From an uncultured Clostridia bacterium (lineage in GTDB: Bacteria > Bacillota > Peptococcia > Peptococcales > Peptococcaceae), in the NCBI GenBank assembly GCA_944391625.1, contig CALXUG010000022.1, positions 1-44,605 of the forward strand: a stretch of DNA of 44,605 nt, read 5' to 3'. This document shows, one piece after another, positions 9,253 through 22,903 of this stretch. A program made the position numbers and the translations under genes. The notes below the pieces were generated by a model, which saw only the letters and a list, made by a program, of their open reading frames with translations, did no database searches and was not told where the DNA came from. Position 1 is the stretch's first letter, and every line of letters begins with the position of its first letter.

Positions 9253-10161
9253 CTACAGCATGGGCAAAAAGGTTTCCACCAGCAAACCTAATGCCAAACC
9301 AAGACCAAATGTGGTGTTGGTTTTGGACACCAGAATCATGGCAGGCATCATCTGTTTGGGCTGCTGCCCTTCCGGACGGAATTTTTCTACCGCCTGCCGC
9401 GCTGTGGGAATACTGAAGTAGGAAGCCAACAGCCAGACACTATGGCCGCCAAAGAAAATCAATCCGGCCACCCAGATATAACAAAAGGCAAACAGAATGG
9501 ACAGCATCTGTACTGACCATTTGTGGCCCAACAAAATCACCAATGTGTGCCTTCCGTTGGCCGCATCCCCCACTCTGTCCCGAATATTATTGCCGGTCAG
9601 AATCAGCCCGATTAACACAGCCACCGGTAAGGAAACAGCCACAACATGCCAGTTGAGCAGACCGGTCTGAATATAAAAGGCAATGCAGATAACTCCGGTG
9701 CCCAGAAAACCACCGGCAAACACTTCACCAAATGGAGAGGACGAAATGGGAAATGGCCCACCGGTATACAAATATCCCACCAACATGCAAAATGCTCCGA
9801 TCAGCAGCAAATACCAGCTGCTGTTGGCACAGATATAAATGCCCAGCAGCGCTGCAAATCCATAGAAACCTAAAGCCAACCCCAACACAAATTGAGGGGA
9901 AGCGCCGTCATGCACAATGGTTCCGCCGATTCCTACCGAATCTTTGGTATCCAGCCCCCGCACATAGTCATAATATTCGTTAAATAAATTGGTTGCCACC
10001 TGTATGGCGCAGCTGGCAAGCAGCATGGCCAGAAATAATCCAAAATGCAGCGTTCGTGTGCAGGAAAAGGCATACATACTGCCCACCAGCACCGGCACCA
10101 GCGACGCTGTTAAGGTATGAGGCCGCAGCAAACGCCACCAAAAATCAAAATCTTTTTTCAT
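9253..10161 (-). CDS. menA: 1,4-dihydroxy-2-naphthoate polyprenyltransferase (UbiA family)
   Basis: Integral membrane prenyltransferase that joins a polyprenyl chain to 1,4-dihydroxy-2-naphthoate, giving demethylmenaquinone. The 302-residue protein starts with the MenA-like RLLRPHTLTASLVPVLVG, has the first Asp-rich motif NEYYDYVRGLD (61-71; N61, D65, D71) and a second at GNNIRDRVGDAANGRHT, and shows about eight or nine hydrophobic spans. The start at 10161 has AAAGGA upstream and is downstream of the promoter at 10228-10257, which excludes the longer reading to 10257. No other men gene is nearby. A related UbiA substrate cannot be excluded. Confidence 0.85.
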   Translation of the reverse strand: MKKDFDFWWRLLRPHTLTASLVPVLVGSMYAFSCTRTLHFGLFLAMLLASCAIQVATNLFNEYYDYVRGLDTKDSVGIGGTIVHDGASPQFVLGLALGFYGFAALLGIYICANSSWYLLLIGAFCMLVGYLYTGGPFPISSSPFGEVFAGGFLGTGVICIAFYIQTGLLNWHVVAVSLPVAVLIGLILTGNNIRDRVGDAANGRHTLVILLGHKWSVQMLSILFAFCYIWVAGLIFFGGHSVWLLASYFSIPTARQAVEKFRPEGQQPKQMMPAMILVSKTNTTFGLGLALGLLVETFLPML

Positions 10162-10227: not shown

Positions 10228-10257
10228 ATTATAGGCAATCTGCCTGACAATAATCAA
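10228..10257 (-). promoter_or_regulatory. menA promoter with a palindrome in its spacer
   Basis: The minus strand has TTGATT (10257-10252), 18 bases, then TATAAT (10233-10228). The spacer holds the short palindrome AGGCA-ATC-TGCCT (10233-10245), a possible operator. Confidence 0.6.
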
Positions 10258-10357
10258 GACAAATTCTTTTAAAAATTTTAATATTATAAAAATCTGTCAA
10301 TAAACGGTCTTCAACCGTTTAAAAAAATGGCAGAAAAAATTTTTTCAAAAATATTGC

Positions 10358-10386
10358 TTGACGGCTGAAAAAAACCATGTTATCTT
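10358..10386 (+). promoter_or_regulatory. Candidate upstream promoter P1 of the speD leader
   Basis: TTGACG (10358-10363), 17 bases, TATCTT (10381-10386). It would start a leader of about 485 nt containing all the hairpins upstream of speD. Confidence 0.4.
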
Positions 10387-10587
10387 TTTTCTAGCAAAAA
10401 ACGTGTGAAAACATGTTGTTTTCATGCAAATATTTTTTGACCGCCCAGTAGATGGGCCAAGGCCATACGGACAGCCGGGTCAAATGCCGATTGGCAACTT
10501 CGTTGCCTTATTGATTGAGTTAAAAGCTCAAATTTTATAAGTTGGTTACTTTACAACCGTATATGTTATATACATCAACTTGTGAAC

Positions 10588-10615
10588 TGGTCAATAAGAG
10601 TAGTAAAAGTATAAT
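10588..10615 (+). promoter_or_regulatory. Candidate proximal promoter P2 of speD
   Basis: TGGTCA (10588-10593), 16 bases, perfect TATAAT (10610-10615). It would give a leader of about 255 nt that still includes the terminator at 10810-10846. Confidence 0.5.
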
Positions 10616-10809
10616 ATTTGCTATATAGACTCTGTAAAACCATAACAACTGTCTTCATTTCGTTTTTCTTTTATTTTAAATTATTTTTTTGCCATATAAA
10701 GGTCTACTCTCCGGTAATCTCTTTCAAACTCTGTTTAAATGCCAAGTATTCCTTTTCTGCAAAAGTAATTTATACAATTTGATAGAAAAGCAGAATTATT
10801 GTTGATACG

Positions 10810-10846
10810 CACAAGTGATGGATATTCCATTGCTTGTGTTTTTTTG
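10810..10846 (+). terminator. Intrinsic terminator in the speD leader (candidate attenuator)
   Basis: CACAAGTGATGG (10810-10821) pairs along its whole length, with two G-T pairs, with CCATTGCTTGTG (10827-10838) around a 5-nt loop, followed by TTTTTTT. It ends 33 nt before the speD start. Either it regulates speD by attenuation or it ends a separate leader RNA. Confidence 0.8.
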
Positions 10847-10878
10847 TTTACAAAAATCGGAAAAAGGAAGGCCCCCCT

Positions 10879-11637
10879 ATGACAGAAAAATTAAAATTAT
10901 ATGGGTTTAATAATCTAACCAAGTCGCTCAGCTTTAATATTTATGATGTATGCTACGCCAAAACAGCCCGGGAGCAACAGGATTATGTTGCTTATATCGA
11001 TGAACAGTACAATTCGGAACGTCTGACTGGTATTCTCACCAATCTGGTAGATATGATCGGCGCTCGGGTATTGAGCATATCCAGACAGGATTATGATCCG
11101 CAGGGCGCCTCGGTAACAGTGCTAATGGCAGAAGAATCCCAGGTTCCCGCTGGTGAAACAATTGTAGGCCATCTGGATAAAAGTCATGTGACCGTTCACA
11201 CTTATCCCGAATACCATCCCGAAACCTGTCTGGCCACCTTTCGCGCCGATATTGATGTAGCTACCTGCGGCACCATTACGCCGTTATCCACGCTGGATTT
11301 TTTAATCAGTTCTTTTGATTCGGATATTATCACCATGGATTACCGGGTGCGAGGTTTTACCCGCGATGTCAGCGGCAAAAAGCTATTCACCGACCATGAT
11401 GTCATTTCCATTCAAAATTATATCAGCCCGGAAATCAAACAGCATTATGATGCGGTGGACATCAATGTGTATGAGGCCAATTTATTCCATACCAAAATGC
11501 TAATCAAAGAACGGGATTTACAAAACTATTTATTTAATGCCGATGTATACGAACTGGCGCCCAAAACCAGACTGGAGATTTCTCATAACCTACGGCGGGA
11601 AATGATCGAAATTTTCAGCGGACGAAATATTTACTGA
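10879..11637 (+). CDS. speD: S-adenosylmethionine decarboxylase proenzyme, E. coli type
   Basis: Pyruvoyl enzyme that makes decarboxylated AdoMet, the aminopropyl donor for SpeE. The 252-residue length fits the long bacterial (class 1a) type rather than the about 120-residue Bacillus type. The proenzyme self-cleaves before S102 in [12 protein letters not shown] (100-111), which becomes the pyruvoyl group; the [18 protein letters not shown] stretch is also typical. The start at 10879 follows AAAAAGGAAGG; an in-frame extension to 10834 would run back into the terminator arm and is rejected. First gene of the polyamine cluster, 17 nt before the decarboxylase gene. Confidence 0.95.
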
Positions 11638-11654
11638 GAACGGAGGGAAACACC

Positions 11655-13121
11655 ATGAATCATTTGTCACAGCAGAATGCACCCATTTATGAAGCGCTGG
11701 AACAGTTTCGCCGTATGCGGGTGGTGCCCTTTGACGTTCCCGGACACAAACGGGGCAAAGGAAATCCGGAGCTGGTGCAGCTGCTGGGAGAGCAATGCGT
11801 AGGTATTGATGTTAATTCGATGAAACCGTTAGATAACCTGTGTCATCCAGTATCGGTGATTCAACAGGCAGAACAGCTGGCCGCTCAGGCCTTCGGCTCA
11901 GCCCATGCTTTCTTGATGGTGGGCGGCACCACATCTTCGGTGCAGACCATGATACTCAGCTGCTGTAAACGGGGCGATAAAATTATTTTGCCCCGCAATG
12001 TACACCGCAGCGTTATCAATGCCTTGATTCTCTGCGGCGCTCAGCCTGTCTATGTAAACCCGGAAGTGGACACCATGCTGGGTATTCCCCTGGGAATGCA
12101 GCTATCCCAGGTAGAGCAGGCCATTTTAGAAAATCCCGATGCAGTGGCAGTGCTGGTCAACAATCCAACCTATTACGGCATCTGCTCTGATCTGCGGGGT
12201 ATTGTGGCACTGGCACATCAACACAAAATGCTGGTGCTGGCTGATGAAGCCCACGGTACCCATCTCTATTTTGGCGAAGGCTTGCCCATCTCAGCCATGG
12301 CCGCCGGAGCTGATCTGGCAGCTGTCAGTATGCACAAATCGGGTGGCAGCCTGACCCAAAGCTCGCTGCTGCTAACCGGTCCGCAAGTGAACGCAGGCTA
12401 TGTACGGCAGGTTATTAACCTGACCCAGACCACCAGCGGTTCCTACCTGTTGCTGGCCAGTCTGGATATTTCCCGCCGCAATCTGGCGCTGCGGGGTAAA
12501 GAAGAATTTGCTCGTGTGATGGAACTGGCCCAATATGCCAGAGATGAGATTAACGCTATCGGCGGCTATTATGCCTATAGCAAAGAGTTGATCAACGGCG
12601 GCAGTATTTATGATTTTGATGTAACCAAGCTATCTATTCATACGCTGGAAATTGGTCTGGCCGGTATTGAAGTATATGATTTACTGCGAGATCAATACGA
12701 TATTCAGATTGAATTTGGAGATATCGGTAATATCTTGGCTTACATCTCTATCGGCGACCGCAAACGGGATATAGAACGGCTCATCAGTGCACTGGCAGAA
12801 ATCCGCCGCTGCTACCGCAAAGAAAGAACCGGCATGCTGTCTCAGGAATATGTAACACCTAAGGTCGTTGCAACGCCGCAACAGGCCTTTTACGCAGAAA
12901 AAGAAGCGTTGCCGCTGGTGCAGACTCAGGGCCGCATCTGCAGTGAATTTGTGATGTGCTATCCGCCGGGGATTCCCATCTTATCACCGGGCGAAGAAGT
13001 GACCCGCGAGGTGCTGGAATATATCCGCTATGCAAAAAAGAAGGGCTGTACCCTAACCGGCACAGAAGATGCCCAATTAAATTATCTGAACGTACTGAAA
13101 ACAGAAAAGGCAGGTGTTTGA
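11655..13121 (+). CDS. speA: Orn/Lys/Arg decarboxylase, probably biosynthetic arginine decarboxylase
   Basis: Fold-type I PLP decarboxylase of 488 residues, the size of Bacillus SpeA, lacking the N-terminal wing domain of the large inducible enzymes. Visible motifs: FDVPGHKRGKG (26-36), VGGTTSSVQ (89-97), DEAHGTH (197-203) and the PLP lysine K228 in SMHKSGGS. The family includes arginine, lysine and ornithine decarboxylases. Arginine is favoured because agmatinase (speB) is encoded two genes downstream, giving arginine to agmatine to putrescine. ATG at 11655 has GGAGGG upstream. The next gene, speE, begins one base after its stop codon, so the genes are cotranscribed. Confidence 0.87.
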   Translation: MNHLSQQNAPIYEALEQFRRMRVVPFDVPGHKRGKGNPELVQLLGEQCVGIDVNSMKPLDNLCHPVSVIQQAEQLAAQAFGSAHAFLMVGGTTSSVQTMILSCCKRGDKIILPRNVHRSVINALILCGAQPVYVNPEVDTMLGIPLGMQLSQVEQAILENPDAVAVLVNNPTYYGICSDLRGIVALAHQHKMLVLADEAHGTHLYFGEGLPISAMAAGADLAAVSMHKSGGSLTQSSLLLTGPQVNAGYVRQVINLTQTTSGSYLLLASLDISRRNLALRGKEEFARVMELAQYARDEINAIGGYYAYSKELINGGSIYDFDVTKLSIHTLEIGLAGIEVYDLLRDQYDIQIEFGDIGNILAYISIGDRKRDIERLISALAEIRRCYRKERTGMLSQEYVTPKVVATPQQAFYAEKEALPLVQTQGRICSEFVMCYPPGIPILSPGEEVTREVLEYIRYAKKKGCTLTGTEDAQLNYLNVLKTEKAGV

Positions 13122-13122
13122 G

Positions 13123-13977
13123 ATGGATTTGTGGTTTTCCGAGTTTCACACAACAGACGTCAAGCTTTCTATCCGGGTACATCGCCAATTATACAGCGGA
13201 CAAAGTGAATTTCAACGCATTGATGTATTTGAATCACCGATTTTCGGCCGATTTTTAACGCTGGACGGCTACATGATGCTGACAGAAAAAGATGAATTTA
13301 TCTACCACGAAATGATTACCCATGTGCCTATGGCCGTCCATCCTCATGTGCAGGATGTACTGGTAATCGGCGCAGGAGACGGCGGCGTAATCCGGGAACT
13401 GAGCGCCTATCCATCTATTGCGCGCATTGACATGGTAGAGATCGATGCGCAGGTGGTGGAAGTATGCCGTCAATATTTACCCCAAACCGCCTGCAAACTG
13501 GATGACCCGCGACTGCATATTTATTATGAGGACGGTCTGCGTTTTGTGCGCAGCAAGAAAGATTGCTATGACTTGATTATCGTTGATTCTACCGATCCCT
13601 TTGGCCCAGGAGAAGGATTATTTACCCGGGAATTTTACGGCAACTGCTACAAGGCGCTACGAGCAGACGGCATTCTGGTTAATCAGCATGAAAGTCCCTT
13701 TTATCAAGATGATGCCTCTGCCTGTCAGCGAGCCCATCAGCGCATAGCTGCCACCTTTCCGGTCAGCTGTGTCTATCAGGCCCATATTCCCACCTATCCA
13801 TCAGGCCATTGGCTATTCGGCTTTGCCTCCAAGCAATATCATCCCATCCGGGATTTGCAGGCAGAGCGCTGGCAGGAGCTAGCCATACCAACCAGATATT
13901 ACACCACCAAACTGCACACAGGTGCTTTTGCACTGCCTGCATATGTTGAGGAGTTGTTGCATGATGTTGAACCCTAA
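13123..13977 (+). CDS. speE: Polyamine aminopropyltransferase (spermidine synthase)
   Basis: Transfers the aminopropyl group of decarboxylated AdoMet to putrescine. The 284-residue protein has the small N-terminal beta domain, GAGDGG (83-88) for the AdoMet analogue, the VEID acidic loop (105-108), YEDGLRF (135-141) and the catalytic VDSTDP with D155. The start at 13123 has AAAAGGCAGG upstream, one base after the speA stop. The 3' end overlaps speB by 17 bases, which implies translational coupling. Putrescine is the presumed acceptor from context; other diamines are possible. Confidence 0.93.
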   Translation: MDLWFSEFHTTDVKLSIRVHRQLYSGQSEFQRIDVFESPIFGRFLTLDGYMMLTEKDEFIYHEMITHVPMAVHPHVQDVLVIGAGDGGVIRELSAYPSIARIDMVEIDAQVVEVCRQYLPQTACKLDDPRLHIYYEDGLRFVRSKKDCYDLIIVDSTDPFGPGEGLFTREFYGNCYKALRADGILVNQHESPFYQDDASACQRAHQRIAATFPVSCVYQAHIPTYPSGHWLFGFASKQYHPIRDLQAERWQELAIPTRYYTTKLHTGAFALPAYVEELLHDVEP

Positions 13978-14827
13978 TATTGAAACCTTTTTGTGCTGTG
14001 ATGCAGACTACCCATCGGCTGAGCTGGTTTTATTCGGCGCACCATTTGATTCCACCACGTCCTACCGTCCCGGTACCCGTTTTGGCAGCCGGGCCATCCG
14101 CAGCGAATCCTTTGGACTGGAATCCTACAGCCCTTATCAGGACAAAGATCTGGAGGACTGCTCCATTTTTGACAGCGGCGATTTGGAGCTTTCTATGGGC
14201 AGCTGTGCATTGGCTTTGGAGCAGATTCAGGAACGTACCGCCATTATTTTGCAGGATGGCAAAATCCCTGTCATGCTGGGCGGTGAGCACCTGGTCACCT
14301 TAGGCGCTGTACGCGCTGCAGCGCAGCAATATCCAGACCTGCACATCATTCACTTTGACGCCCATGCCGATCTGCGCCAGGAATACTTGGGTGTAGAACT
14401 GTCCCACGCTTGTGTACTGCGCCGCTGCTGGGATATCTTGGGTGATAACCGCATTTATCAGTTTGGTATTCGCTCCGGTACCCGCGAAGAATTTTTGTGG
14501 AGCAGCGCTGGTCATACCAATATGCAAAAATTCAATTTTGCTCAGTTAAAGCAGACCATTGCTCAGCTGCAAGGCAAACCCATCTATTTCACCATTGATT
14601 TAGATGTGCTGGATCCGTCTATATTTCCCGGCACTGGCACACCGGAAGCAGGCGGTGTAGGCTTCTTAGACCTGCTGCAGGCAATTCACACTGTATGCGC
14701 CGGCAGTCATATTGTAGGCTGTGATGTTAATGAGCTGTGCCCTGCTTATGATGCCAGCGGCGTATCCACGGCCGTAGCCTGTAAAGTGGTGCGGGAGTTA
14801 TTGCTGGAACTAAGCACAAAAAAGTAA
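13961..14827 (+). CDS. speB: Agmatinase (ureohydrolase family)
   Basis: Binuclear Mn enzyme that splits agmatine into putrescine and urea. All metal-binding motifs of the arginase/agmatinase family are present in 288 residues: GGEH (H110), HFDAHADLR (D133, H135, D137) and TIDLDVLDPS (D213, D215). The substrate loop GTGTPEAGG is typical of agmatinase. The ATG at 13961 has GAGGAG upstream and lies inside the end of speE; an upstream frame extension to 13922 lacks an equal site. With the arginine decarboxylase it completes putrescine formation from arginine. A 172-base gap separates it from the second half of the cluster. Confidence 0.92.
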   Translation: MMLNPNIETFLCCDADYPSAELVLFGAPFDSTTSYRPGTRFGSRAIRSESFGLESYSPYQDKDLEDCSIFDSGDLELSMGSCALALEQIQERTAIILQDGKIPVMLGGEHLVTLGAVRAAAQQYPDLHIIHFDAHADLRQEYLGVELSHACVLRRCWDILGDNRIYQFGIRSGTREEFLWSSAGHTNMQKFNFAQLKQTIAQLQGKPIYFTIDLDVLDPSIFPGTGTPEAGGVGFLDLLQAIHTVCAGSHIVGCDVNELCPAYDASGVSTAVACKVVRELLLELSTKK

Positions 14828-14999: not shown

Positions 15000-16202
15000 A
15001 TGGGAAAATTATTAATTATCGGCTGCGGCGGTGTTGCCAGCGTTGCCATCCACAAATGCTGTCAGAACAGTCAGGTATTTGAAGAAATCTGTATTGCCAG
15101 CCGCACCAAATCCAAATGTGATGCGCTGAAGGAAAAACTGGAAGGCACCACCAACACCAAAATCACTACAGCCCAAATCGACGCTGATAACGTACCAGCT
15201 TTGATTGCCTTAATTAAAGAAGTAAAACCAGACGCTGTGCTCAATCTGGCTCTGCCTTATCAGGATCTGCACATTATGGACGCCTGCCTGGCTACCAAAG
15301 TGCATTATATTGATACTGCCAACTATGAACCGGAGGATACCGCCAAGTTTGAATATAAATGGCAGTGGGCTTATCGGCAGCAGTATGAAGATGCCGGCAT
15401 CACTGCTTTATTGGGCAGCGGCTTTGATCCCGGCGTTACCAGCGTATTTTCTGCATACGCCTTAAAGCATTATTTTGATGAAATCAACTATATCGATATT
15501 CTGGACTGCAATGGCGGTGACCATGGCTATCCCTTTGCCACTAACTTTAATCCGGAAATCAATATTCGTGAAGTATCCGCCAAAGGCTCCTATTGGGAAG
15601 ACGGCCACTGGGTAGAAACCGAACCCATGGAAATCAAACGGGTGTATCAGTTCCCGCAGGTTGGTGAAAAGGATATGTATCTGCTCCACCATGAAGAAAT
15701 CGAATCTTTGGCACTGAATATCCCTGGCATCAAACGCATCCGTTTCTTCATGACCTTTGGACAGAGCTACCTCACCCATTTAAAATGCCTGGAAAACGTA
15801 GGTATGACTTCCATTGAACCAATCATGTATGAAGGCAAGGAAATTGTACCGCTGCAATTTTTAAAAGCTGTACTGCCCGACCCAGCTTCTTTGGGACCGC
15901 GCACCAAAGGCAAAACCAATATCGGCTGCATTTTTACCGGCAAAAAAGATGGACAGGAAAAATCCATTTACATCTATAATGTGTGCGACCATGAAGCCTG
16001 CTACAAAGAAGTAGGTTCTCAGGCAGTGGCCTACACCACCGGCGTGCCTGCCATGATTGGCGCTATGCTGGTCATGCAGGGTGCCTGGCAGAAACCGGGC
16101 GTTTACAATGTGGAAGAATTTGATCCAGATCCATTCATGGATGCATTAAATCAGTGGGGACTGCCTTGGGTAGTAGAGGAAAATCCGGAGCTGGTAGACT
16201 AA
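15000..16202 (+). CDS. Carboxynorspermidine/carboxyspermidine dehydrogenase (saccharopine dehydrogenase family)
   Basis: NAD(P)H-dependent enzyme of 400 residues that condenses a diamine with aspartate semialdehyde. Putrescine gives carboxyspermidine and diaminopropane gives carboxynorspermidine. The N-terminus is a Rossmann motif (LIIGCGGVASVA, 4-15), followed by ASRTKSKCD, NLALPYQD (80-87) and a region typical of the CASDH branch of the Lys1 family, with GSGFDPGVTSVFSAY near 139-153. The alternative, a lysine-pathway saccharopine dehydrogenase, is unlikely because the stop codon overlaps nspC (TAATG). AAAGGAG lies upstream of the ATG at 15000. Confidence 0.87.
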   Translation: MGKLLIIGCGGVASVAIHKCCQNSQVFEEICIASRTKSKCDALKEKLEGTTNTKITTAQIDADNVPALIALIKEVKPDAVLNLALPYQDLHIMDACLATKVHYIDTANYEPEDTAKFEYKWQWAYRQQYEDAGITALLGSGFDPGVTSVFSAYALKHYFDEINYIDILDCNGGDHGYPFATNFNPEINIREVSAKGSYWEDGHWVETEPMEIKRVYQFPQVGEKDMYLLHHEEIESLALNIPGIKRIRFFMTFGQSYLTHLKCLENVGMTSIEPIMYEGKEIVPLQFLKAVLPDPASLGPRTKGKTNIGCIFTGKKDGQEKSIYIYNVCDHEACYKEVGSQAVAYTTGVPAMIGAMLVMQGAWQKPGVYNVEEFDPDPFMDALNQWGLPWVVEENPELVD

Positions 16203-17329
16203 TGAAGTTAGAACAGCTGCCTACCCCCTGCTATGTGATTCAGGAAGAAAAGCTGCTGCAAAACCTGCAGATTCTGCAAGGTGTGCAGCAGCGCACTGGC
16301 TGTCATATTTTGCTGGCGCAAAAAGCATTTTCTGCCTTTGCTCTTTACCCGCTGATAGGGCAATATCTCAACGGCACCACCGCCAGCGGTTTGTACGAAG
16401 CGCGGCTGGGTGCCGAAGAAATGGGCGGTGAAGTGCATATCTTTTCTCCCGCTTATCAGGACTCAGAATTTGCGGAAATCTGCCGACTATGCGACCATAT
16501 CATTTTCAATTCCTGCCAGCAGGTACGAAAATTTGCCGATATGGCCAAAGCCGCCGGTGTCAGCATCGGACTGCGTGTCAATCCCCAGTGCTCCACCCAG
16601 GAAGGCCATGCCATCTATGACCCTTGTGCGCCCGGTTCCCGTCTGGGCGTAACAGTGGAGCAGCTGGATTGGGAAATCATTTCCATGCTGGATGGGCTGC
16701 ACTTTCATACCCTGTGCGAACAAAATGCTGATGCACTGGCCATTACCCTGGCCGCTGTGGAACGGCATTTTGGTTCCTGGCTGCCAAATTTAAAATGGAT
16801 CAATTTTGGCGGCGGTCATCACATCACCCGGGACGATTACGACATTGCCCTATTGGAACAATGCATTACTTCCGTGCAACAAAAATATGATGTCACCGTC
16901 TATTTGGAACCGGGAGAAGCAGTAGCGCTCAATGCTGGTCTGCTGGCTACCACTGTGCTGGACACACTGCAAAACGGCATTGAAATCGCTATCCTGGATA
17001 CCTCTGCAGCCTGCCATATGCCCGACGTGCTGGAAATGCCCTATCGTCCGCCATTGCTGCACGCTGCTCAGCCCGATGAAAAGCCCTTTACCTATCGTTT
17101 AGCCGGCCCTACCTGCCTGGCTGGCGATATCATCGGCGATTATTCGTTTGATACACCATTACAACCGGGGCAGCGGCTGTATTTTGCCGATATGGCCATC
17201 TACTCCATGGTGAAAAACAACACCTTCAACGGCATGGCGCTGCCAACCATCGCACTGCAGCAAGCAGACGGCCAATGCCGCATTATTCGGCAATTTGGAT
17301 ATGAAGATTTCAAGAATAGATTATCCTGA
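16202..17329 (+). CDS. nspC: Carboxynorspermidine/carboxyspermidine decarboxylase
   Basis: Alanine-racemase-fold PLP decarboxylase that removes the carboxyl group to release spermidine or norspermidine. Of 375 residues, K41 in LLAQKAFS is the PLP lysine; GLHFHTLCEQ, NFGGGHH, YLEPGEAV (PLP phosphate side) and GPTCLAGD with C305 and D309 are the expected active-site motifs. Its ATG shares one base with the stop codon of the dehydrogenase gene, so the two are translationally coupled. A frame extension to 16154 lies inside the dehydrogenase gene and is rejected. Last gene of the cluster, closed by a strong terminator. Confidence 0.92.
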   Translation: MKLEQLPTPCYVIQEEKLLQNLQILQGVQQRTGCHILLAQKAFSAFALYPLIGQYLNGTTASGLYEARLGAEEMGGEVHIFSPAYQDSEFAEICRLCDHIIFNSCQQVRKFADMAKAAGVSIGLRVNPQCSTQEGHAIYDPCAPGSRLGVTVEQLDWEIISMLDGLHFHTLCEQNADALAITLAAVERHFGSWLPNLKWINFGGGHHITRDDYDIALLEQCITSVQQKYDVTVYLEPGEAVALNAGLLATTVLDTLQNGIEIAILDTSAACHMPDVLEMPYRPPLLHAAQPDEKPFTYRLAGPTCLAGDIIGDYSFDTPLQPGQRLYFADMAIYSMVKNNTFNGMALPTIALQQADGQCRIIRQFGYEDFKNRLS

Positions 17330-17487: not shown

Positions 17488-19521
17488 TTAATCAACATAG
17501 TCTTCCAAAATTTGATATACCACTGCGCCTTCACATTGTTTTGGCATTCTTACATCCAACATATGGGCTACAGTTGGGGTTACATCCACCTGACGGATGA
17601 TACGCTGAGAGTTGTAACCTTTCTTCAAACCTTTACCGGCAGCAATAAAGATTGGTGCTACAGAAGTATCTTTATAACCTTCTACCATTGGCAGCGCATC
17701 GCCGTGCAGACGGTTTACCCCTTCTTCCAGCCAATACAGTACATCACCGCATTCTGGACCGCCGGTGCCCAGTACCATAGCATCTTTGTTGCGCATTGCC
17801 ACTGCGATTACCCGCTTGCCGTTTAATCTGTAGTTATACAGCGCATCGATGATTTCCCGTTCTAATTCATATTTATCGGCTGGATCTACGATACCGGTTG
17901 GATATTTTCCTTTCAGGTTGATGTAAATCTGTCCGCCGCGGGTAGCAACCGCTCTGGTTTTTTCCCAGTCGATTTCTTTCAGGTTATTGCCGTTTTCGTC
18001 TTTCTTCAAAATAGTGAAGCCCAAATCCTGCATTACCATTACGTTACAACCGAATGCATCACCGATTAATGGTTTTTCATCTTCTTCCGGTGTCAACAGA
18101 CCATGGTCAGAGAAAATCATGATAGTCCAACCTTCATCTAAGTAGTGCAGGAATTCGCCTAAATAACGGTCAGTTTGTTCATATACTTGATAAAGGGCAT
18201 CCTGATAGCCTTCTTCTTCCATTTTATTTTTAGTTGGACGATTTTTGCCATAATACCAGAATGCATGCCCCTGGGCATCCACATTATGAATATGGCTGAA
18301 TACTACATCATAACCATTTTCATCAATCAAATAGTTCAGTGCTTTTGCCTGCCATTTGCAAACTTCATCCCAGGTAGGAATCATAATGCGATTAACAATT
18401 TCTAAATCATAACCACCGAAAGTTGGGTTAGGCTGTACATAGCCAACATTGTCTACAATTTGTTTGTACAGGGATTTTGGATGGAACAGAGTATCATGAT
18501 CAATATCAAAGGCTTTACTCATCCACAACCGAACCATACTGCCGTCTTCTGCAATATCCATCAGCAGCATATTACGGTTGCCCATTTTCTTTTCTTCTTT
18601 ATGAATATATTCATCTACAATACCGATTCTATATTCGTCTTTTTTCAGAACAACAATTGGTTCTGCATCTTTTTTGCTGTGATAGTAAGCAACTCTGTCA
18701 TACACACCATCTTCATTTTTCAGAATCAGGCAAGGACGACGTACCAAACCATCAGAAATGACTACATAAAATTCTTTGGCACCTTCCGGAGCATCAGCCC
18801 AACCGGTGGCATCTTTGATTGGAGAGTTGCACAGGTCAATAGCCACATCTTCAATCCCATCTTCCCCATCGGAATGTTTCAGAATGATATTGGTCATGCT
18901 CATACCACCGGAAGAAATAATGTTGGTGCAAGTAGCCATTGTAGCTGCTGTATCATCTTCTTCTGGAATATCTTCAATGACACATCCAGCACCGGTATTA
19001 TTTACTGCAGCCGGTTTAAACTGTACAGACTGAATATCTTCTCTTGCCAGTACCATTTTTTCCATTTCTACACGAGCCACACCAGCGTTGACCGCAGCTG
19101 GCTGTGTACCATCAATAACATGCAGATTTGGGTTGTCGCTGGTTGGAGGCCAGCTGGAACCAGGCCAATGCCATACTAAAGTTTTCAAACCAGCTTCCGC
19201 AGTTACATTCCACAATGCTTCAGCGGTGCAAAAACGAGAATCTAAGTTATATCCCGCTGTATCCAGATGAACCGGATCCTGTCTCCAGAAACAGGTGATA
19301 CCATGAGTAACAGGCAGAGCACCAGTGGATAACGTGGTCCACAATGGAGGGGTAATGGTTGGCGGTGTGCAAACTAACTGCAAGCTATCTTTCTGTGCGC
19401 CAGCTTCTACAAATTTTCTAATGTTTGGTAATTTACCTTCTTTTAAATATCTGGAAGTTAATTTAGGATCTAATCCATCAACACCTAACAGCAACACTTT
19501 ATCGGTATATTTTTTTCCCAT
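17488..19521 (-). CDS. Alkaline-phosphatase-superfamily hydrolase, paralog AP1
   Basis: 677-residue cytoplasmic protein (no signal peptide, no membrane span) of the nucleotide pyrophosphatase/phosphodiesterase-like branch of the alkaline phosphatase superfamily. The two-metal site is intact: D15 in LLGVDGLD, nucleophile T57 in TPPTITPPLWTT (set by its 9-residue distance to the TG motif), D415 and H419 in NVDAQGH, D472 and H473 in SDHG, and H606 in RLHGD. Members cleave phosphate mono- or diesters, phosphonates or sulfate esters; the substrate cannot be read from sequence. A 10-20 residue patch near 185-208 is longer than in AP3. ATG at 19521 follows AAAAAGGAGC. Divergent from LysR1. Confidence 0.85.
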   Translation of the reverse strand: MGKKYTDKVLLLGVDGLDPKLTSRYLKEGKLPNIRKFVEAGAQKDSLQLVCTPPTITPPLWTTLSTGALPVTHGITCFWRQDPVHLDTAGYNLDSRFCTAEALWNVTAEAGLKTLVWHWPGSSWPPTSDNPNLHVIDGTQPAAVNAGVARVEMEKMVLAREDIQSVQFKPAAVNNTGAGCVIEDIPEEDDTAATMATCTNIISSGGMSMTNIILKHSDGEDGIEDVAIDLCNSPIKDATGWADAPEGAKEFYVVISDGLVRRPCLILKNEDGVYDRVAYYHSKKDAEPIVVLKKDEYRIGIVDEYIHKEEKKMGNRNMLLMDIAEDGSMVRLWMSKAFDIDHDTLFHPKSLYKQIVDNVGYVQPNPTFGGYDLEIVNRIMIPTWDEVCKWQAKALNYLIDENGYDVVFSHIHNVDAQGHAFWYYGKNRPTKNKMEEEGYQDALYQVYEQTDRYLGEFLHYLDEGWTIMIFSDHGLLTPEEDEKPLIGDAFGCNVMVMQDLGFTILKKDENGNNLKEIDWEKTRAVATRGGQIYINLKGKYPTGIVDPADKYELEREIIDALYNYRLNGKRVIAVAMRNKDAMVLGTGGPECGDVLYWLEEGVNRLHGDALPMVEGYKDTSVAPIFIAAGKGLKKGYNSQRIIRQVDVTPTVAHMLDVRMPKQCEGAVVYQILEDYVD

Positions 19522-19676: not shown

Positions 19677-19714
19677 GGCAGAGTAATACAATTAAATAAT
19701 TGTATTACTCTGCC
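19677..19714 (-). terminator. Perfect 18-bp-arm palindrome upstream of LysR1
   Basis: GGCAGAGTAATACAATTA and its exact complement flank a 2-base loop. The minus strand continues with TTTTTTT, so it acts as a terminator for transcripts coming from behind AP1. It also contains the LysR1 -35 (19700-19705), so it could be an operator. Confidence 0.6.
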
Positions 19715-19728
19715 TTTCCGTTTATAAT
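19700..19728 (+). promoter_or_regulatory. LysR1 promoter
   Basis: TTGTAT (19700-19705), 17 bases, TATAAT (19723-19728). Confidence 0.65.
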
Positions 19729-19771
19729 AGAGCTTAATAACTACAGCTTTCTCAAAAGGAGCATAATTTCT

Positions 19772-20698
19772 ATGAACACCTTGTATTTTAACTACATTCT
19801 TACTATAGCCAACTGTCAATCTGTCAGTAAAGCTAGTCAAAAACTAAATCTAAAACAACAATATCTGAGTCATGTAATAAAAACACTAGAACAGGAGTTT
19901 GATATAAAAATTTTTCGACGCCATTCCCGTGGTGTTACACCAACCGAAGATGGTAAAATTTTTCTGGAACAAATCAAAAAAATCACAGAAGAAATCAATA
20001 ACCTCTATTTACAAGGACAGTACCCAAGTAAACAGACTGCTGTCCATGAAAATCCCACTTTAAATTTATATGTGCTGCCCATGCTGCAGCCTGTGAATAT
20101 CAATCAAATGATTACTGCCTATCGCAATTTATTTCCACTGGTAAAAATCAATTATACAGAAACCTTTTTAACCGACAGCATTCCGGCTGTTTTAGAACAA
20201 CCTTACGCCATCAGTATGCAATTAGCCAGATTACCGTTAGACTCTTTACAAAGCCGTTTACCGTCAAATCTGAAAATCATAAAACTATCGCCCAGCAAAT
20301 TATCTATTTTAACATCGAAACAAACAGCCCATGCACAAAATTTATCCCAAATGACAATACCGGAGCTTTTAGAAAAAGATTTACTTTTCTTTGCGCCGCG
20401 CGGACTGGAAGAATCAGGAGCTTATCAATTTCTTACCCATTATGGTACTCCAACCAATGTAAAAGCCGTTGAAAATAATATGATTTTTATGAATTTGCTG
20501 GAGAATGAAACTTATTTTACGGTAGGTTCCTCCCGGCTTGCTGAACATAATGAGAACCTTGCTGCCATTCCTATTTCCGATTATGATGAATTATCATTTT
20601 ATAACATTGCCATCATCCGATCTGATACTTTCAACTCCCCAATTATCCGCGACTTTTTAAATATTATGCTGAACCACTTAGGAGAGCTAACTATATAG
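19772..20698 (+). CDS. LysR-type transcriptional regulator LysR1
   Basis: 308-residue LTTR, normal length. The winged helix-turn-helix occupies about residues 1-60, with the recognition helix in LKQQYLSHVIKTLEQEF and wing IFRRHSRGVTPTEDG. Residues about 90-300 are the periplasmic-binding-like effector domain. The N-terminus is close to LysR2 and LysR5, so the three are paralogs. Start ATG at 19772 follows AAAAGGAGC; the upstream frame (to 19700) runs through the promoter. Divergent from AP1, the usual arrangement of an LTTR with its target; the effector is presumably the AP1 substrate or product (inference). Confidence 0.9.
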   Translation: MNTLYFNYILTIANCQSVSKASQKLNLKQQYLSHVIKTLEQEFDIKIFRRHSRGVTPTEDGKIFLEQIKKITEEINNLYLQGQYPSKQTAVHENPTLNLYVLPMLQPVNINQMITAYRNLFPLVKINYTETFLTDSIPAVLEQPYAISMQLARLPLDSLQSRLPSNLKIIKLSPSKLSILTSKQTAHAQNLSQMTIPELLEKDLLFFAPRGLEESGAYQFLTHYGTPTNVKAVENNMIFMNLLENETYFTVGSSRLAEHNENLAAIPISDYDELSFYNIAIIRSDTFNSPIIRDFLNIMLNHLGELTI

Positions 20699-20795: not shown

Positions 20796-22817
20796 TTAAT
20801 CAACGTAATCCTCTAAAATCTGATATACAACTGCTCCTTCACATTGTTTTGGCATTCTTACATTTAACATATGAGCTACGGTTGGTGCCATATCTGCCTG
20901 ACGGATGATACGCTGGGAATTATAGCCCTTCTTCAAACCTTTACCGGCAGCGATAAAAATTGGAGTTACAGATGTATCAAAAACACCTTCTACCATTGGC
21001 AATGCATCGCCATGCAAACGATTTACCCCTTCTTCTAACCAGTACAGTACATCGCCGCATTCCGGTCCGCCGGTACCCAATACCATAGCATCTTTGTTAC
21101 GCATAGCTACAGAGATAACACGTTTACCATTCAGTCTGTAGTTATACAGAGCATCAATAATCTCCCGTTCTAATTCATATTTATCAGCCGGGTCAACAAT
21201 ACCGGTTGGATATTTTCCTTTCAGATTGATATAAATCTGGCTTGCACGAGTAGCAACGGCTCTAGTTTTTTCCCAATCAATTTCTTTGATTTCATTGCCG
21301 TTTTCATCTTTTTTCAATACAGTAAAGCCTAATTCTTTCATAACACCAACATTACAACCGAATGCATCACCAATCAATGGTTTTTCCTCTTCTTCTGGAA
21401 TCAGCAGACCATGGTCAGAGAAAATCATGACGGTCCAATCTTCATCTAAATAATGCAAGAATTCACCTAAATAACGGTCAGTCTGTTTGTAAACCTCTTC
21501 AATTGCTGCCCGATAACCAGCTTCTTCTTCTTTGCCCATAATTGGACGGTTTTTACCATAATACCAGAACATGTGCCCCATAGCATCTACACTGTGTATG
21601 TGACTGAATACAACCTGGTAACCATTTTCATCAATCAGATAATTCAATGCTCTAGCCTGCCATTTTGTTAACTCATCCCAAGTAGGAATCATAATACGGT
21701 TTACCATTTCCAAACTCATCCCATTTACAGTTGGATGAGAAAGTGGGTAACCCACATTTTCTACCACTTGTTTGAACAGGGATTTTGGATGGAACAGGGT
21801 ATCATGATGAATATCAAATGCTTTCCCCAACCACAGACGCACCATAGAACCATCTTCTTCTATGTTCATTAACAGCATGTTACGACTACCCATTACTTTT
21901 TCATCACCACGGATATATTCATCCACTACAGCTACTGTATAGTCATCTTTTTTCAGAACAACGATTGGTTCTGCATCTTTTTTGCTGTGGTAATAAGCAA
22001 CTCTGTCATATTTACCGTCTTCATTTTTCAAAATCAGGCAAGGACGACGTACCAAACCATTAGAAGTTACCACATAAAATTCTTTGGCGCCTTCCGGAGC
22101 ATTGTCCCAGCCAGTAGCATCTTTGATCGGAGAGTTACATAAATCCAGTGGAGCATCACCAACGCCATCTTCCCCATCAGACTGTTTCAGAATGATGTTG
22201 CGCATACTTAAAGCATCTCCACCCAGCAGTGTATTTGGATCGAATACATCATCTGCTTCTGGAACATCTTCAATTACACAACCTGCACCGGTATTATTAG
22301 TAGCAGCTGGTTTAAACAGTACTTTTTCAAAGTCATGACGAGCCAGTACCAATTTTTCAGCGTCTGCTTTTGGAGCACCACCGTTTACAGAAGTCGGTTG
22401 AGTACCATCAACTACATGCAGATTTGGGTTCTGACTGGTTGGAGGCCAGCTGGAACCCGGCCAGTGCCATACCAATGTTTTCATACCAGCTTCGGCAGTT
22501 ACATTCCACAATGCTTCTGCATGACACAGGCGGGAGTCTAAGTTATATCCTGCGGTATCCAGATGAACCGGATCCTGTCTCCAGAAACAAGTAATACCGT
22601 GAGTTACAGGCAGAGCGCCAGTAGCCAATGTGGTCCACAGTGGAGGAGTAATGGTTGGCGGTGTACAAATTAATTTTAAATCTTCTTTCTGCGCACCGTT
22701 TTCTACATATTTTTTAATATTAGGCAGTTTACCTTCATCCATGAATTTTTTAGTCAGTCTTGGATCTAATCCATCTACACCCAGTAATAATACTTTGTCT
22801 GTGTACTGTTTACTCAT
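20796..22817 (-). CDS. Alkaline-phosphatase-superfamily hydrolase, paralog AP2
   Basis: 673 residues, same fold and active-site set as AP1: LLGVDGLD (D15), TITPPLWTT (T57), SVDAMGH, FSDHG, RLHGD. It is closest to AP5: both have GLDPRLTKKF, GKLPNIKKYVENGAQKE and TRASQIYINLK where AP1, AP3 and AP4 have TRGGQIYINLK. The middle region (about 143-210 and 295-460) differs most from the other paralogs. Start ATG at 22817 follows AAGGAG; the 8-codon upstream extension has no site. Divergent from LysR2. Unlike AP3-AP5 it has no permease gene next to it. Confidence 0.84.
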   Translation of the reverse strand: MSKQYTDKVLLLGVDGLDPRLTKKFMDEGKLPNIKKYVENGAQKEDLKLICTPPTITPPLWTTLATGALPVTHGITCFWRQDPVHLDTAGYNLDSRLCHAEALWNVTAEAGMKTLVWHWPGSSWPPTSQNPNLHVVDGTQPTSVNGGAPKADAEKLVLARHDFEKVLFKPAATNNTGAGCVIEDVPEADDVFDPNTLLGGDALSMRNIILKQSDGEDGVGDAPLDLCNSPIKDATGWDNAPEGAKEFYVVTSNGLVRRPCLILKNEDGKYDRVAYYHSKKDAEPIVVLKKDDYTVAVVDEYIRGDEKVMGSRNMLLMNIEEDGSMVRLWLGKAFDIHHDTLFHPKSLFKQVVENVGYPLSHPTVNGMSLEMVNRIMIPTWDELTKWQARALNYLIDENGYQVVFSHIHSVDAMGHMFWYYGKNRPIMGKEEEAGYRAAIEEVYKQTDRYLGEFLHYLDEDWTVMIFSDHGLLIPEEEEKPLIGDAFGCNVGVMKELGFTVLKKDENGNEIKEIDWEKTRAVATRASQIYINLKGKYPTGIVDPADKYELEREIIDALYNYRLNGKRVISVAMRNKDAMVLGTGGPECGDVLYWLEEGVNRLHGDALPMVEGVFDTSVTPIFIAAGKGLKKGYNSQRIIRQADMAPTVAHMLNVRMPKQCEGAVVYQILEDYVD

Positions 22818-22903
22818 TTTTAAACATCTCCTTATATTCATAATTTCATCTTATAATTTTCGGAAATCCATTTATCTGCATCTCCGATTCATTTATTGGC
22901 TTT

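Follow-up and report, generated by a model that had tools for sequence, protein, structure and literature searches.

How is the polyamine operon of this uncultured Clostridia bacterium controlled, and what is the role of the long leader preceding it? In the window (the whole stretch of 44,605 nucleotides analysed), this leader is located between menA, its minus-strand upstream neighbour (NF004749; start near 10161), and the polyamine operon. A preliminary description, made from the letters alone, had proposed a structured attenuator of polyamine synthesis extending from 10258. This position approximately corresponds to the end of the TTG-started reading of the menA ORF, and the structured element was found to begin near 10426, with helix P1 (10426/10621). 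The general proposal was otherwise borne out by covariation, by an exclusive polyamine gene context and by the terminators of relatives. Sequence comparison argues for a cis-acting, transcription-attenuating leader, most likely a polyamine riboswitch with spermidine as its likeliest ligand, a reading to which we assign a probability of about three in four. The operon and its expression signals are the following:

10358-10386, plus strand: probable promoter, TTGACG-17-TATCTT with TG before the -10 (consensus match only)
10864-10871, plus strand: probable ribosome-binding site of speD, AAGGAAGG (sequence inspection)
10879-11637, plus strand: speD, adenosylmethionine decarboxylase, ATG at 10879 (TIGR03331, 395.7 bits)
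11655-13121, plus strand: Orn/Lys/Arg decarboxylase of ldcC/speA type (PF01276, 229.7 bits)
13114-13977, plus strand: speE, spermidine synthase (TIGR00417/NF002010)
13922-14827, plus strand: speB, agmatinase (TIGR01230)
15000-16202, plus strand: carboxynorspermidine synthase (NF043000, E 3.4e-129, 431.6 bits against a cut-off of 800; PF03435/PF16653)
16202-17329, plus strand: nspC, carboxynorspermidine decarboxylase (TIGR01047, 474.8 bits)

The window also carries, on the minus strand, a pair of type I phosphodiesterase/nucleotide pyrophosphatase genes that closely resemble each other (17488-19521 and 20796-22841), with a divergent gene for a LysR-type regulator (19700-20698) between them.

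Extent and fold of the leader element

The structured element covers about 210 nt (10426-10633) and comprises ten helices that are covarying or highly conserved. Its parts, together with the switching strand and the terminator, are listed below.

10426-10434, plus strand: 5' strand of P1, GCAAATATT, closing stem (covariation, three pairs with double changes; closes in the MFE fold)
10438-10490, plus strand: 5' domain, corresponding to RF02440 (cmscan, 69 bits, E 1.7e-10; P2a covariation)
10493-10507, plus strand: P3 hairpin, GGCAAC/GTTGCC (covariation)
10508-10597, plus strand: P4 (10508-10514/10591-10597), enclosing P5 and the P6-P7-P8 junction (covariation; matches of model R1, see below)
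10533-10587, plus strand: P6 (10533-10541/10579-10587) with hairpins P7 (10544-10558) and P8 (10559-10573) (alignment of relatives, covariation)
10573-10584, plus strand: switching strand CATCAACTTGTG, 3' side of P6/P8 or, alternatively, 5' side of the antiterminator (best of 224 windows; co-evolution)
10597-10633, plus strand: P9, AGAGT/ACTCT, with the P1 3' strand (10613-10621) in its loop (nearly invariant, one double change)
10809-10846, plus strand: intrinsic terminator; the antiterminator strand pairs with its 5' arm at 10810-10820 (terminator scan)

P1 pairs GCAAATATT with AATATTTGC and is pseudoknotted with P9, the last hairpin. The 5' domain contains P2 (10437-10442/10478-10483), P2a (10443-10447/10453-10457) and P2b (10461-10463/10474-10476), and P5 is formed by 10515-10519 and 10527-10531. 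The three-way junction suspected at 10539-10581 proved to be real and is that of P6, P7 and P8 (10533-10587). An additional hairpin, GTGTGAAAACATGTTGTTTTCATGC at 10403-10427, overlaps the P1 5' strand and could compete with P1.

Folding of 10426-10634 gave -58.9 versus -42.2 +/- 4.2 (z -3.96), surpassing all 200 dinucleotide shuffles. Covariation in relatives, a check that had been proposed beforehand, was evaluated in an alignment (A1) of 40 diverse sequences, with P1 as a pseudoknot across P9 and P2-P8 nested. The proposed structure pairs 88.4% of the cells, versus 35-47% for partners slid by 1-3 columns, a comparison biased in its favour since the structure was partly derived from the same sequences. 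This bias is absent from the shuffle test, which ignores relatedness: 108 cells were changed on both sides versus 38.3 +/- 4.8 in shuffles, none of the five measures being reached by shuffles, and the structure including its pseudoknot is thus backed by covariation. Clear double changes were observed in P1, P2a, P3, P5, P7 and P8, in two pairs of P4 and in one pair each of P2 and P9. P6 varies on one side only (G-U/A-U exchanges) and its support is weaker, while P2b is supported by single cases only (AGC/GCT in L149, GGC/GCT in L006 and L141); in L200, what looked like a clean compensatory exchange in P2b was not confirmed by hand alignment.

RF02440 and the spread of the element among relatives

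The preliminary description had recognised no known riboswitch class and had suggested an Infernal search against Rfam. This held for other Rfam classes, which gave chance matches only in 10240-10890 (E 0.27 and 0.75). It did not hold for the known family RF02440 (SpF59 sRNA / ldcC RNA), which matched the leader at 10438-10490 over model positions 1-54 of 54 with 69 bits, against a gathering threshold of 37.2 (cmscan). With its 54 nt, this model is limited to the element's 5' domain. Relatives were collected by RF02440 match and by DNA-pattern search of genome contigs, the latter giving more than 118 matches, so that the total abundance of the element is a lower bound. Conservation extends about 150 nt beyond RF02440, to 10633, with long near-invariant blocks seen in Paenibacillus, Bacillus, Neobacillus, Blautia, Ruminococcus, Agathobaculum, Synergistaceae and Spirochaetes; the roughly 200 conserved nucleotides thus span Bacilli, Clostridia, Synergistaceae and Spirochaetes.

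A covariance model (R1) built only from the part of the element outside the 54 nt of RF02440 had matches in 24 of the 398 genomes sampled from the phylum, and RF02440 in 17 of them. All 17 RF02440-positive genomes were among the 24, and the two matches abut where coordinates were compared. RF02440 is therefore one domain, the 5' one, of a larger element. Conversely, seven of the 24 genomes with the 3' part had no RF02440 match over the cut-off, and of 18 sampled R1 loci 11 reached this cut-off as well; the 3' part therefore exists without a recognisable RF02440 domain. Two speD leaders of about 105 nt (L153 and L154, about 1560-1770) keep P1, the CTTGTGAA..GGTCAATAAGAGTAGTAAAAG block, P9 and the terminator, and have neither the RF02440 domain nor P3-P8. 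They probably represent the smallest functional form of the element. The conserved functional core may be the 3' part (P1, P9, CTTGTGAA..GGTCAATAAGAGTAGTAAAAG), which Rfam does not model. RF02440 scores were 62-74 bits for Paenibacillus and clostridial sequences and 39.8 bits for L200 and L201, divergent full-length leaders upstream of ldcC from one Bacilli genus (2 Mb). The RF02440 consensus being nearer to the former, the published ldcC motif would correspond to the 54-nt domain only.

The distribution of the element is patchy even within the family of the window's host, since in two of its genomes (G009 and G010) the fetched stretches (L011 and L010) contain speD but no Rfam element. At the sensitivity of this search, no phage record contained the element, and the sole plasmid record was a 2.7-Mb Paenibacillus replicon.

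This conservation also bears on the nature of the signal. Protein control is frequent among terminator-antiterminator leaders, and a protein could bind at the large invariant stretches; the leader might then be read by an antiterminator protein, a ribosome-associated signal or another trans-acting factor instead of a small molecule. We consider this improbable, as a pseudoknotted fold of about 200 nt, invariant blocks across phyla and minimal versions such as L153 and L154 are typical of aptamers, and no candidate regulator was linked to the loci.

Terminator and antiterminator

The terminator claimed at 10810-10846, 33 nt before speD, was recovered at 10809-10846. It consists of GCACAAGTGATGGA-TAT-TCCATTGCTTGTGT, forming a hairpin of 14 pairs (10809-10839; -18.0 kcal/mol) followed by a T-run to 10846, and the leader region has three terminator-like sites versus 0.3 expected from shuffles. 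Among the matches listed, an intrinsic terminator lies between element and start codon in 95 of 113 leaders of relatives. The same scan detected none in six leaders of a rumen Clostridia clade (L029, L040, L047, L068, L080 and L112), which have a different 3' domain, GAGTGCGATGAGCTTTGGCTTTGAGGACCTCTTGCCC, and about 50 nt to the speD start; these may act on translation.

Pairing of CTTGTG (10579-10584) with the terminator 5' arm had been proposed as an antiterminator, and CACAAG at 10810-10815 is indeed exactly complementary. This pairing was first doubted since CTTGTG, being part of P6, does not vary, a doubt reversed by a scan in which the terminator 5' arm was compared, by duplex energy, with each 9-nt window of its own aptamer in 45 non-redundant leaders. 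The windows at 10576-10578 (CAACTTGTG, AACTTGTGA, ACTTGTGAA) came top of 224, the most complementary being CAACTTGTG (10576-10584), the very strand named in the preliminary description. This best window reached -5.2 kcal/mol versus -2.5 for shuffled arms (z about -10), and the median window was without effect. The full antiterminator is longer than had been proposed, 10573-10584 pairing with 10810-10820 around one bulged A.

The two strands also co-evolve. Own arms gave -9.18 versus -7.93 +/- 0.23 for swapped arms in 62 leaders, and -9.37 versus -7.71 +/- 0.32 in 35 conservatively filtered ones, values reached by none of 20,000 permutations in either set. Co-varying pairs include GCTTG/CAAGC in L005 and L166, TACTTGTG/CGCAAGTA in L160, AACTTGTG/CGCGAGTT in L034 and AACACTTG/CAGGTGTT in L173. 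Single-position contingency tests of the antiterminator were not significant and had low power, the signal residing in the whole helix.

P6 (-11.4 kcal/mol in the window), the antiterminator (-14.3) and the terminator are mutually exclusive through their common use of 10579-10584 and 10810-10820. One strand is thus common to P6 and the antiterminator, and linked to the terminator via its arm, an arrangement that is usual for OFF riboswitches. Sequence and comparison establish the element with its fold and gene context, as well as the terminator and an antiterminator that co-evolves with it, and all of these are compatible with the following model. What we infer in this model is that a ligand binds directly, which ligand this is, and that binding turns the operon off. 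The aptamer (10426-10633, with the P1/P9 pseudoknot and P2-P8) would be transcribed first. The trigger would be a small molecule that, once bound, stabilises P6 and so termination: P6 would hold CATCAACTTGTG (10573-10584), the terminator would form and the polyamine operon would be off. Without ligand, the CATCAACTTGTG strand would capture the terminator's 5' arm at 10810-10820, allowing RNA polymerase to read through into speD-speA/ldcC-speE-speB-carboxynorspermidine synthase-nspC. Such a leader would combine two features of riboswitches observed here, a structured and conserved aptamer preceding genes of linked function, and an expression platform that cannot form together with one of the aptamer helices.

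Besides the rumen leaders without a detected terminator and the non-significant single-position tests, two further observations count against this model. The spacing between aptamer and terminator is long (about 180 nt), and two carboxynorspermidine synthase leaders (L006 and L007) have lost the 5' strand of P6 together with P7 and the greater part of P8. CTTGTG stays in L006 (CCTGTG in L007), as does CTTGTGAA in L006, with CCTGTGAG in L007; the strand must be held otherwise in these leaders and the switch wired differently.

Attenuation by translation of a leader peptide, as in amino-acid operons, had been listed among the options. It can hardly be upheld: a frame open over 290 nt occurred in only one of 117 elements, revealing no conserved reading frame, and an SD-preceded upstream ORF in only 12, the window leader having none. 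A translated upstream ORF with regulatory codons was not found, and a leader-peptide attenuator was rejected.

Downstream genes, known systems and candidate ligands

Among the matches listed, the next gene was a polyamine gene in all 114 relatives with enough downstream DNA, and the element was always co-oriented with and directly upstream of polyamine genes. A first reading of 113 loci gave speD (52), carboxynorspermidine synthase (50), potA (4), ldcC/speA (2) and five unclear cases. Reading all frames of the latter and of L064 added three cases each of speD and carboxynorspermidine synthase, for totals of 55, 53, 4 and 2; these loci are not independent, many being from Paenibacillus. NCBIfam models confirmed SpeD in the window and, for L002 and L044, polyamine transporters of the PotA type. 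These four gene types, found in distant genera, have only the polyamine pool in common, through synthesis by two routes and uptake. Since the same RNA precedes potA, a polyamine ABC transporter gene, in L002, L004, L044 and L099, the element probably controls polyamine uptake as well as synthesis.

This context also bears on the status of RF02440, which Rfam types as 'Gene; sRNA'. Its relative in the pneumococcus is listed as sRNA F59/srn235 and lies between SP0915 and SP0916 (PMC3395615, PMC12323649), and by analogy an independent small RNA could end at 10846, with speD transcribed from a promoter further downstream. This appears very unlikely: no promoter-like site was found on the plus strand between 10616 and 10890, the invariable position and orientation of the element relative to polyamine genes speak against it, and a co-evolving antiterminator would be purposeless in a stand-alone sRNA. 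Moreover, a prematurely terminated leader would likewise be seen as an sRNA, resembling the catalogued F59/srn235. The comparative evidence points to a cis-acting leader, and the element differs from RF02440 as filed, a 54-nt sRNA gene, in being about 210 nt long with P1, P3-P9 and an expression platform, whereas the 5' domain is the same over the full model and the element was found in all 17 RF02440-positive genomes of the 398-genome sample. The streptococcal 'sRNA' would thereby change from a stand-alone regulator to a probable attenuation product, which matters for virulence screens listing F59 as an sRNA (PMC4387999).

Natural spermidine riboswitches have been sought many times, mostly without published success (Salvail et al., PMC10853860). 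The SAM-I variant spermidine riboswitch (Salvail et al. 2023, PMC10853860) is located upstream of speB, speD, speE and ldcC, where it switches transcription off by means of a terminator and an antiterminator. The present element resembles it in its position upstream of polyamine genes and in its terminator/antiterminator platform, a likeness of working and not of membership. No SAM-I match was found in 10240-10890 at E up to 1 in Rfam, the four-way junction of SAM-I contrasts with a P1/P9 pseudoknot with nested junctions, and the variant class is called rare (PMC10853860), whereas the present element occurs in dozens of genera. The speF, potE (WRC-18-1) and odc1 motifs are orphan RNA motifs upstream of polyamine genes, the first and last described from alphaproteobacteria and potE from Veillonella (PMC8632094, PMC11477304); as far as they are in Rfam, a scan at E up to 1 revealed no relation to them.

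Spermidine appears the likeliest ligand because the controlled genes make or import polyamines and because the validated SAM-I variant is a spermidine OFF switch. The same attenuator might instead sense putrescine, agmatine, cadaverine, decarboxylated SAM, MTA or SAM: SpeD uses SAM, RF02440 is named after ldcC, and the SAM-I variant illustrates the swapping of related ligands (PMC10853860). We regard such a ligand as rather unlikely, given that SAM is used by none of ldcC, potA and carboxynorspermidine synthase, that no SAM-family match appeared in the leader even at an E of 1, and that the four gene types have the polyamine pool as their common outcome. With spermidine as preferred ligand, the element may well represent a widespread class of polyamine (spermidine) riboswitches, with its own pseudoknotted aptamer of about 210 nt structurally unrelated to the SAM-I type, of which the 5' domain alone has been catalogued. 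As an abundant conserved leader on polyamine genes only, with a co-evolving terminator switch, it makes the question testable with one RNA construct. Within the genus of the window's host, the element precedes speD in one genome (G000) and potA in two others (G001 and G003).
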